This document shows, in pieces, positions 38,444-46,165 of a stretch of 64,000 nt of DNA. Source of the DNA: Flavobacteriaceae bacterium LSUCC0859 (GTDB taxonomy: Bacteria > Bacteroidota > Bacteroidia > Flavobacteriales > Flavobacteriaceae). Below the pieces are notes generated by a model, which searched no databases, was not told the DNA's origin, and saw only the letters and a program-made list of their open reading frames with translations. The position numbers were made by a program, and so were the translations under genes. How positions within the stretch are numbered: the first letter of the stretch is position 1; each line of letters opens with the position of its first letter. The stretch is taken from contig JAKOGP010000002.1 in the NCBI GenBank assembly GCA_022239325.1, positions 1 through 64,000 of the forward strand, written 5' to 3'.

Positions 38444-40055
38444 CTAAGTCATCATTTAATATATAAAACTGGTTATTTCTATTTTTTAGATTTAACCTTT
38501 TTTTATTTACATCAAATACTACTTCACCCCTCTCTTTACCTAACACTATCCCCATTTTAATTTCAAATCTTTTCTTATCCTCCTCAATTATCTCCTTAAC
38601 AAAAACACTATAAACATACTTATCTAATATCCTTCTCTTATCCTCTCTCCTTTCAATATAATAATCCTTTAACATCTCCTCTTTCATATAACTCATCCAA
38701 CTATCAATTTTATCTACATAACCATATTTTACAATTTCTCCCTCAATTCCTTTTTTCTTTTTTTCAATTTCCTTTTTACTTACCTCAAATTCATTTTTAA
38801 TCCAATCCTTATAATCAACCTCACTAACATCTCCATCTAAATACAAATTCATTATTTTATTCTTTCTATCATTCAACTTTTTCAATTCCCTTTCATAATA
38901 TCCTTTTTTACCAATAAATCTATCTTTTAAACCAACCTCACTATTATATCTCTTTTTAAAATCCTTTATTATAATATCACTATTCATTAAAATTCTGAAT
39001 AACCCATTCCACACAATTTCATCTAATTTATCTTTACTTATTTTATTACCTCTTAAACCACTATCACACAACTCATCATCATTCACTTCAATACCTCTCC
39101 TTTTATTTTTCCAAAATTCTTTATATCCACTACATCTATAATACCTATAACTCTTACCATTCACCATTTTCCCACTTCCCTCAATCCACATTTTCTTTCC
39201 ACAATCCTCACAAAATACCTTTCCTTTCAACAAATAAATCTCTTTACTATTTCCACCTCTAATCCCTTTAACAAACTTTAATTTTTCAATAACTGCTTCA
39301 AACACTTCATCATCAACAACCTTTTCTAACTCAAATTTAAACTCACCATCCTTATCAGTCTCAAAAACTAACTCTCCATTATATTTTTTACTCCCTAATA
39401 CTCTACTAATTAAACCACTATAAACAACTCTCTTCCCATTTACCTTTTTCCCATATTTACTTTCAATCATTTTTTCCACATCAGCATATTTCTTTACATT
39501 TTTATATAAGAAATAATTATACATATCTCTAACCACATCACATTCCTCCTTTACTAAACTTACCTCACCATTTACACTTTCAAAACCAAATCCTATATTA
39601 CCTAATCCTTTTCCTTCTCTCCATCTTTTATTTCTTCCCTCCTTCATCACCCTAACCAACTTCCTTTTCCAATACTCACTGAATACACTGCTCAATCCAT
39701 ATTCTAATTCACCACTTCCCTCTAAAATATTTTTTTCTTCAAACCCAACAAAAACCCTAATATCATTATCCTCAACTAATTTTCTAAAATATAACATCAC
39801 TTCTACATCCCTAATCATTCTATCCCAATCATATAACCATATACCTCCAATCTCTCCATCAAATATTTTCTCTTCTAACTTTAAAAATACTTCCCTATCA
39901 CCACCCATCTTCACACCACTCACAACTTCACTAAAAACCTCATATTCAAACCCCTTATCCTTACAAAATTTAATACCTAATTCTTTCTGACTTTCTAAAC
40001 TGCTATTATCTTTCTGATTTTCACTACTTACTCTACAATAAACACCAACCTTCAT
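38403..40055 (-). CDS. Large serine recombinase (integrase); C-terminus read from tRNA-fMet antisense
   Basis: A 550-residue serine integrase. The resolvase domain (1-140) has YCRVSSENQ with the likely nucleophile S10, and DWDRMIRD with the R79/R82 arginines. A recombinase domain (about 150-265), a zinc ribbon (C282, C285, C308, C330) and a lysine-rich coiled coil (about 385-445) follow, as in large serine recombinases. Up to residue 538 there are no Pro or His, one Thr, two Ala and three Gln, reflecting C loss in the coding strand. The last 12 residues, AGTGLEPVTFGL, come from antisense tRNA-fMet and end at a TGA in the anticodon loop. At the CTACT core, the 46030-46165 fragment continues this frame in phase, giving a 581-residue protein in the excised circle. 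Confidence 0.93.
   Translation of the reverse strand: MKVGVYCRVSSENQKDNSSLESQKELGIKFCKDKGFEYEVFSEVVSGVKMGGDREVFLKLEEKIFDGEIGGIWLYDWDRMIRDVEVMLYFRKLVEDNDIRVFVGFEEKNILEGSGELEYGLSSVFSEYWKRKLVRVMKEGRNKRWREGKGLGNIGFGFESVNGEVSLVKEECDVVRDMYNYFLYKNVKKYADVEKMIESKYGKKVNGKRVVYSGLISRVLGSKKYNGELVFETDKDGEFKFELEKVVDDEVFEAVIEKLKFVKGIRGGNSKEIYLLKGKVFCEDCGKKMWIEGSGKMVNGKSYRYYRCSGYKEFWKNKRRGIEVNDDELCDSGLRGNKISKDKLDEIVWNGLFRILMNSDIIIKDFKKRYNSEVGLKDRFIGKKGYYERELKKLNDRKNKIMNLYLDGDVSEVDYKDWIKNEFEVSKKEIEKKKKGIEGEIVKYGYVDKIDSWMSYMKEEMLKDYYIERREDKRRILDKYVYSVFVKEIIEEDKKRFEIKMGIVLGKERGEVVFDVNKKRLNLKNRNNQFYILNDDLVAGTGLEPVTFGL
38441..38445. repeat. Left attachment core (CTACT) at the tRNA 3' end
   Basis: CTACT covers tRNA bases 71-73 and two more bases. 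The same five bases occur at 46161-46165. Joining the left flank to the right flank at this core yields a tRNA gene followed ten-odd bases later by a strong terminator, as expected of an empty site. Confidence 0.6.
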
Positions 40056-40064
40056 AATTACAAT

Positions 40065-40081
40065 TTTATATATTAAATAAT
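40065..40081. repeat. 17-bp AT repeat, copy 1, upstream of the recombinase
   Basis: TTTATATATTAAATAAT, identical to 40251-40267; 14 of these bases also occur inverted at 38454-38467. In such AT-rich DNA chance similarity is possible. Copy 1 lies upstream of the recombinase start and copy 2 directly abuts the end of the endonuclease gene. Confidence 0.45.
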
Positions 40082-40211
40082 GTCTCCCATAAATTTAAAC
40101 ATTTCTCTCACATTATCTGTTTTTTTATATACAACTATATTAAAACCTCATTAACCCCTATTAAAACTAATCTTTCATATTATATCCCAATTAATCTTAA
40201 CTATAAGACAT

Positions 40212-40242
40212 AAAAAAAGTGATAATATTTCTATCATCACTT
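40212..40242 (-). terminator. Hairpin terminator after the endonuclease gene; left copy of a 31-bp direct repeat
   Basis: On the minus strand a stem of ten positions with one mismatch and a 6-base loop (AAGTGATGAT pairing with ATTATCACTT) is followed by seven Ts. It shares 29 of 31 bases with 41851-41881. It lies 27 bases past the endonuclease stop. Confidence 0.7.
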
Positions 40243-40250
40243 ATTCTATC

Positions 40251-40267
40251 TTTATATATTAAATAAT
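40251..40267. repeat. 17-bp AT repeat, copy 2, at the endonuclease 3' end
   Basis: Identical to 40065-40081 (TTTATATATTAAATAAT). Together with the flanking 31-bp repeats it may mark rearrangement around the restriction-modification cassette. Confidence 0.4.
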
Positions 40268-45835: not shown

Positions 45836-45864
45836 AACAATAACTTATCTATATATAATACCAA

Positions 45865-45892
45865 TATAATATCATTACACTAAAATAATATA
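45865..45892. repeat. 28-bp repeat upstream of the polymerase-like gene, copy 1
   Basis: One difference from 43543-43570. On the minus strand it lies about 30 bases before the start of the 522-residue gene. Copy 2 is exactly 50 bp further upstream. Confidence 0.6.
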
Positions 45893-45920
45893 TAAAAAAT
45901 ATAATTAATAAATTACTACA

Positions 45921-45942
45921 ATCATTACACTAAAAAAATATA
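45921..45942. repeat. 22-bp repeat upstream of the polymerase-like gene, copy 2
   Basis: Its 22 bases are identical to 43549-43570. Spaced 50 bp from the preceding copy, about five helical turns, which suits cooperative binding of a regulator. Confidence 0.55.
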
Positions 45943-46029
45943 TAACCATTAAAACTAATTATTCATCAAATAAAATAAAATCACACATAATTAATCAATA
46001 TAATTAATCCAAAAAATAATAAATATAAA

Positions 46030-46165
46030 CTACTGATAATCAGATATATACATTTTATTTCTATTATAATTTATCTTACTTCTCCCACAAATATTCCAAT
46101 TAACATCCAAAACTACATTAACAATAAATCTATTTTTATATATCAAATTACAACCCTTTACTACT
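46030..46165 (-). pseudogene. 3' fragment of the serine recombinase gene, separated by integration
   Basis: A minus-strand open frame of 43 codons past the core (beginning VKGCNLIYKNRF and ending MYISDYQ) with the same C-free composition as the element. It lacks a start of its own within the element; the ATG further upstream (46242) lies in chromosomal DNA beyond the core. At the CTACT core its codon phase equals that of the recombinase (core adenine is a third codon base in both), so joining the ends extends recombinase residue 538 by these 43 residues. In DNA of only A, G and T about 3 of 27 codons are stops, so a 43-codon run is unlikely by chance. Confidence 0.75.
46161..46165. repeat. 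Right attachment core (CTACT)
   Basis: Same five bases as 38441-38445. G becomes frequent again immediately to its right, and the tRNA-type terminator follows five bases later. There is no longer duplication of the tRNA 3' part here, as expected for a serine rather than tyrosine integrase. Confidence 0.6.

Follow-up and report, generated by a model that had tools for sequence, protein, structure and literature searches.

A 64,000-nucleotide stretch of Flavobacteriaceae bacterium LSUCC0859 (contig JAKOGP010000002.1, positions 1 to 64,000; hereafter the window) carries an integrated element of 7.7 kb, at 38442-46163, whose genes are intact despite a near-complete loss of cytosine from their coding strand. 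An original prediction, made from the letters alone, had placed an integrative element at 38446-46165. The element and its integrative nature stand, but the exact ends do not, since the directly repeated TACTA core puts them four and two bases to the left. The element lies between a tRNA-Met gene and the terminator of this tRNA (46170-46199), and joining the two flanks restores both. The identical end cores, the target restored upon excision and a recombinase with Resolvase, Recombinase and zinc-ribbon domains are those of a serine-recombinase integrative element. A natural empty site was not found, the orthologous flanks in the genus being too diverged to show one. In the excised circle the frame of the large recombinase stays open across the junction and encodes 580 residues, with a tail read from 46030-46163. 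Upon integration, this tail is replaced by residues read from the tRNA.

All core genes lie on the minus strand. Outside a restriction-modification (RM) cassette the plus strand has only 51 G in 6,131 bases by direct counts, and the C content of the coding strand is thus 0.8% (19 G in 1795 bases at 38446-40240, 31 in 4201 at 41800-46000). The counts given in the original prediction, 1 G in the 600 bases of 38521-39120 and 14 in the 1440 bases of 42121-43560, were exact on recounting. In the host flanks G makes up 19.1% and 18.8% of the bases, so that the skew ends at the element borders. Runs without any G reach 521 bp in the element, when the expected number of 200-base runs in dinucleotide shuffles of the window is 0.00. 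The whole host genome has 10 G-free runs of 182 bases and all 10 are inside the element; among about 790 Bacteroidota genomes, such 182-base patterns occur only in tandem repeats, in very AT-rich small genomes and in this element. The near absence of coding-strand C is thus real. Since the loss stops exactly at the ends of the element, the process behind it acts on the element and not on the chromosome.

The loss takes place at the level of nucleotides and not of codon choice, as had been proposed. Non-coding DNA is depleted as well: on the minus strand of the element C/(C+T) is 0.042 there, against 0.317 for G/(G+A). The proteins follow, with a 225-residue recombinase devoid of Ala, Thr, Pro and His and a 522-residue protein devoid of Pro, Thr and His that keeps a single Ala, yet the frames are open and the core genes have no stop codons. 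The RM cassette was rightly set apart as an exception, 40260-41795 having no net strand skew (202 C, 188 G). At third codon positions, C3/(C3+T3) is 0.016 for the core genes, 0.042 for the large recombinase and 0.37 for host genes. The purine counterpart, G3/(G3+A3), is not lowered (0.38-0.41 in the element, 0.31 in host genes), and C loss is therefore restricted to the sense strand. Table 1 lists the features of the element.

Table 1. Features of the integrated element and of its insertion site (coordinates in the window; aa, amino acids)
Feature	Coordinates	Strand	Remarks
tRNA-Met (CAT), intact	38371..38444	+	ARAGORN; Rfam RF00005 67.3 bits; 3' end adjoins integration site
Whole element	38442..46163		TACTA direct repeat at 38442-38446 and 46159-46163; zero CpG throughout
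Large serine recombinase, 550 aa when integrated	38403..40055	-	Pfam Resolvase, Recombinase, Zn_ribbon_recom; phrog_95
Terminator-like hairpin (AAGTGAT..ATCACTT and T run)	40212..40242	-	One side of RM cassette; stem keeps C
MvaI/BcnI-family restriction endonuclease, 246 aa	40269..41009	-	Pfam PF15515 6e-55; no CpG; less C-depleted than core
N6/N4 DNA methyltransferase, 248 aa	41046..41792	+	Pfam PF01555 2e-39; no CpG
Second terminator-like hairpin, near-identical	41849..41881	-	Other side of RM cassette
Helix-turn-helix (excisionase-like) protein, 62 aa	41911..42099	-	Pfam HTH_17 4.6e-6; zero C; counterparts in L068 and L081
103-aa protein, function not assigned	42117..42428	-	1 C in 312 bases
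Non-coding region, 426 bp	42429..42854	-	C/(C+T) 0.057, G/(G+A) 0.363
Small serine recombinase, 225 aa	42855..43532	-	Pfam Resolvase 5e-37; 4 C in 678 bases; 90% identical to that of L068
74-aa protein, function not assigned	43573..43797	-	Zero C
Zinc-finger protein, 89 aa	43970..44239	-	Resembles endonuclease VII / HNH families; phrog_2340 1.4e-8 and others
522-aa protein, function not assigned	44267..45835	-	7 C in 1569 bases; no His
Non-coding stretch, 194 bp	45836..46029	-	Not one minus-strand C

Skewed relatives, for which the original prediction had suggested a search, exist in independent assemblies. We scanned 85,000 species genomes with a C-free pattern of the start of the serine recombinase, and complemented this with genome searches. 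The scan matched a 4.4-kb element of Flavobacterium sp. UBA4098 (L068) and, in a further genome of the Bacteroidota, a remnant of 0.5 kb (L064); the genome searches added L074 and L081. Viral sequences were also scanned, with profiles of the recombinase and of the Rep as well as with motifs lacking C or G, and no skewed member turned up. L068 has the gene order of the window element and a closely related small recombinase (Table 1), in a different genus and at a different insertion site; the small recombinases of L074 and L081 are 70% and 62% identical to that of the window. The order shared with L068, L074 and L081 is large recombinase, helix-turn-helix protein, a protein of 61-103 aa, small recombinase and a replication-type gene, the last of which differs in the window element; L074 is incomplete on the left, where part of the sequence may be foreign. 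The same exonuclease gene is split by L068 (264-743 and 5214-5459), L074 (2801-3082) and L081 (6449-6688 and 12556-13035), and is therefore a recurrent target. L081 carries as cargo a SinI-like restriction enzyme and a C5 methyltransferase (9913-11829), at a location unlike that of the RM cassette of the window. These elements form a small family of integrative elements of Bacteroidota, mainly Flavobacteriaceae, which excise as circles via serine recombinases.

The bias is graded within this family. On the depleted strand C amounts to about 2-3% in L068, L074 and the L064 remnant and to about 10% in L081, and C3/(C3+T3) is 0.030 in L074, 0.057 in L068 and 0.181 in L081 when host genes range from 0.30 to 0.46 across hosts (G3/(G3+A3) 0.22-0.41 across elements). 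Homologues of normal composition had been named as a potential refutation: a milder homologue, L081, does exist, and the effect is therefore graded rather than all-or-none. The strand asymmetry is weaker outside genes in L068. It is nearly absent in the non-coding DNA of L074 and L081 outside stems, where C/(C+T) is 0.157 and 0.247 and G/(G+A) 0.189 and 0.275. That the coding skew far exceeds the non-coding skew in the milder relatives had escaped the original prediction. Cargo is also milder than core, with 5.8% C in a 167-aa gene of L068 against 1-3%, and 7-8% in the RM genes of the window against 0-1.4%.

The direction of change is the C-to-T on the coding strand that had been put forward: of the 26 synonymous sites with C in L081, 24 have T in the window element and not one has C. 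Between the same two elements G is retained at 46-49% of synonymous sites, A at 38-48% and T at 75%, and T has become C at only 3 of 108. The small recombinases of the window and L068 differ by many purine transitions, with C nearly forbidden, and their ratio of non-synonymous to synonymous substitution rates (dN/dS) is 0.043, with dS at 1.55, i.e. they are under strong purifying selection. An excess of A>V, T>I, P>L/S and H>Y changes had also been predicted, and this was not borne out. About 5 of about 51 Ala, Thr, Pro and His residues of L081 are one-step C-to-T products in the window element, and these residues have been replaced by many different ones. The absence of such an excess argues for a long-standing equilibrium instead of a recent burst, with a slow remodelling of the proteins constrained by purifying selection.

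A second anomaly, which the original prediction had missed, is that the whole window element is devoid of CpG, RM cassette included. The gap without CpG spans 7,817 bp (38439-46256), where 54 are expected, and the next largest gap in the window is 367 bp. L081 also lacks CpG over 5,948 bp (6673-12621), where 137 are expected, with GC dinucleotides as numerous as expected. In both elements CpG absence ends at the borders. The RM genes of the two elements have no CpG and yet keep other cytosines, when 7-38 CpG are present in RM and recombinase homologues elsewhere. With identities of 42-52% at best, the RM homologues are too distant to test the fate of CpG cleanly. The codons of L081 show how thorough the process has been: NCG is found 0 times and NCA 105, CGN 0 times and AGR 97, and NNC before G 0 times against 215 for NNT. 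L068 has no CpG effect at third positions. The loss of CpG is thus partly separate from that of sense-strand C, and sense-strand C-to-T change alone does not explain the CpG desert. That complete CpG loss affects the two RM-carrying elements may be a coincidence, given how few elements there are. Most of the cytosines left in the window element belong to CAG, where C makes up 10.7% of C+T compared with about 1.5% in other contexts. They are often at synonymous sites, and of the 51 none precedes a G. A family-wide exemption of CAG was considered and rejected, since it concerns the window element only, with no clear effect in L068 or L074.

The explanation towards which we lean, tentatively and with slightly more doubt than assurance, is a sustained C-to-T pressure on the sense strand of element DNA while this is single-stranded, combined with a separate pressure eliminating CpG. 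Single-stranded DNA is deaminated about 100-fold faster than double-stranded DNA (PMC1087484). Cytosine would be deaminated while the sense strand is exposed, and the mutational pressure would have been kept up for a long time. The exposed strand might be the one displaced as the excised circle replicates, in line with the rolling-circle Rep of the HUH type found in most sister elements, or the non-template strand during transcription, which would better fit the coding bias. C-to-T change on the non-transcribed strand was reported by Beletskii and Bhagwat in 1996, as cited in PMC2031905. Purifying selection would have kept the proteins working while Ala, Thr, Pro and His gave way to residues encoded without C, and the second pressure would have cleared CpG completely in two elements. 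The third-position bias, the graded relatives, the 24 of 26 synonymous changes from C to T, the milder cargo, the sharp borders, the low dN/dS and the HUH Rep of the sisters all speak for this explanation.

Several observations weigh against it. A replication process acting on the whole strand does not predict the near-symmetric non-coding DNA of L074 and L081: the window element is depleted whether coding or not, these two are not. Confinement to transcribed DNA fits L074 and L081, and the window element less well. The most extreme element, that of the window, has no recognisable HUH Rep, and the 522-aa protein found at that position is devoid of His. CpG has also been eliminated by routes other than sense-strand C-to-T (NCG to NCA, CGN to AGR), and neither replication nor transcription accounts for the CpG desert. 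Uracil-DNA glycosylase is encoded in all four hosts tested, which led us to reject a loss of uracil repair in the host. Finally, with only five elements known, stages of the process are not separable from differences between lineages.

Alternatively, C and above all CpG in the sense RNA or DNA of the element could be a liability, and C loss an escape by selection from an agent such as a host defence or an RNA-degrading or transcription-terminating factor acting on C-containing transcripts. We regard this, the main rival, as unlikely, if worth serious attention. It would account for the greater depletion of coding than non-coding DNA in three of the four elements, for the absence of CpG in every codon context, including changes other than C-to-T (codon counts of L081), and for a residual C that follows its 3' neighbour, none in CpG and some kept in CAG. 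APOBEC enzymes have preferences for the 5' neighbour, unlike this dependence. The two RM genes of the window element lie on opposite strands, and each tends to have little C on its sense strand, significantly so for the endonuclease (0.057 against 0.171, p = 0.008) and not for the methyltransferase (0.096 against 0.165). But surveillance would have to be very efficient to leave 1-2% C at synonymous pyrimidines and to clear C from a 194-bp non-coding stretch; our analysis identified no such agent, and we know of no surveillance factor against C of the required efficiency. Evasion of restriction is very improbable as an explanation. Losing C from one strand does remove all palindromic sites with G:C pairs, and 6-bp palindromes containing G:C number 8 in the window element when its own dinucleotides lead one to expect 22, but avoiding sites does not demand the loss of nearly every C. 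Restriction-site avoidance was rejected because L081, already free of CpG, contradicts it, with 4- and 6-bp palindromes as numerous as expected (GATC 16 for 16.8, G:C-containing 6-mers 48 for 46).

The composition could instead be inherited, if the element had recently arrived from an unsampled organism or virus lineage with such a composition genome-wide. The core genes are skewed in all five elements, and none of the collections searched contains a close relative of the 522-aa protein. Yet a small recombinase 90% identical in another genus and at a different insertion site, and a composition graded within the family, make this improbable, and it would merely shift the question to the donor. 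As to burst-like editing, akin to repeat-induced point mutation (RIP) or APOBEC hypermutation, or a bisulfite or sequencing artefact, the replacement of C by T on one strand is all that recalls them, and their likelihood is negligible. The artefact raised in the original prediction is excluded because relatives are skewed in independent assemblies, five in all, and the flanks are normal. The hallmarks of RIP- or APOBEC-type bursts, premature stops and one-step amino-acid products, are missing: core genes have no stops, one-step products are not enriched and dN/dS is very low.

With TP901-1/phiC31-type integrases and the SCC/Ccr elements, the window element shares a large serine recombinase with Resolvase, Recombinase and zinc-ribbon domains, a short core repeat and RM cargo. 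It differs from elements of this kind by two unequal serine recombinases, by the lack of recognisable conjugation genes (no relaxase or conjugation gene is among the Pfam, PHROG and NCBIfam matches of its proteins) and by its extreme composition. The best NCBIfam match of its small recombinase is CcrB, with scores far below the curated cut-offs of Ccr. The sister elements resemble rolling-circle plasmids and microviruses by their small Rep, which the window element lacks by Pfam and PHROG. This Rep has HxH and YITKH motifs in L068, L074 and L081, and matches Pfam REP_ORF2-G2P in the first two (8.7e-5 and 6e-4), that of L081 being recognised by alignment. For a structural model of a sister Rep (predicted local distance difference test, pLDDT, of 63), the top match in the PDB is SIRV1 ORF119 (E 6.5e-4, template modelling score 0.5-0.6), itself an HUH Rep, and the top viral match a microvirus replication initiator.

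Rolling-circle plasmids have a characteristic skew according to a 2009 study (PMC2804667), but the literature searched offered no rolling-circle replicon in which one strand comes near 1% C. The nearest published disparity that we found, also with one strand rich in C relative to G, is that of Ch65 (Microgenomates group), with 29.8% C and 15.0% G over its full length (PMC7143001), whereas the plus strand here has about 25% C and 0.8% G inside one element only. Transcription-associated C-to-T change of the non-template strand affects the same strand in the same way. Its known effects are modest, when the window element has about 98% T at synonymous pyrimidines and its non-coding DNA is hit too. 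The loss thus far exceeds the strand asymmetries found in the literature, where no mobile element near zero for one base is described; as the search covered few subscription papers, this is weak evidence of absence. The same bias, graded, in four more elements or remnants suggests a process on the cytosines of these elements that is not yet described. There is somewhat less than an even chance that this is a cytosine-directed pressure specific to certain mobile elements, bringing sense-strand C to near zero, removing CpG entirely and leaving proteins adapted to do nearly without Ala, Thr, Pro and His; it could be either a host mutator or defence, or the escape of the element from C- or CpG-sensing. 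With graded relatives, a sharp-bordered CpG desert and RM genes in an intermediate state, the cause can be tested. Meanwhile, these elements provide natural serine recombinases under purifying selection that are built almost without Ala, Thr, Pro and His.

Some features of the window element deserve a word. The 522-aa protein, which stands where the sister elements have their HUH Rep, has a weak match to phrog_4756 (1.3e-5), a PHROG with no assigned function, and none in Pfam, NCBIfam, the PDB, plasmids, phages, viral contigs or 300 genomes of the family; its single-sequence fold model is uninformative (pLDDT 30). The 103-aa protein matches, by position and by similarity judged by eye, the 61-70 aa protein of L068 and L081. 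The near-identical hairpins on the two sides of the RM cassette are perhaps a trace of its insertion.
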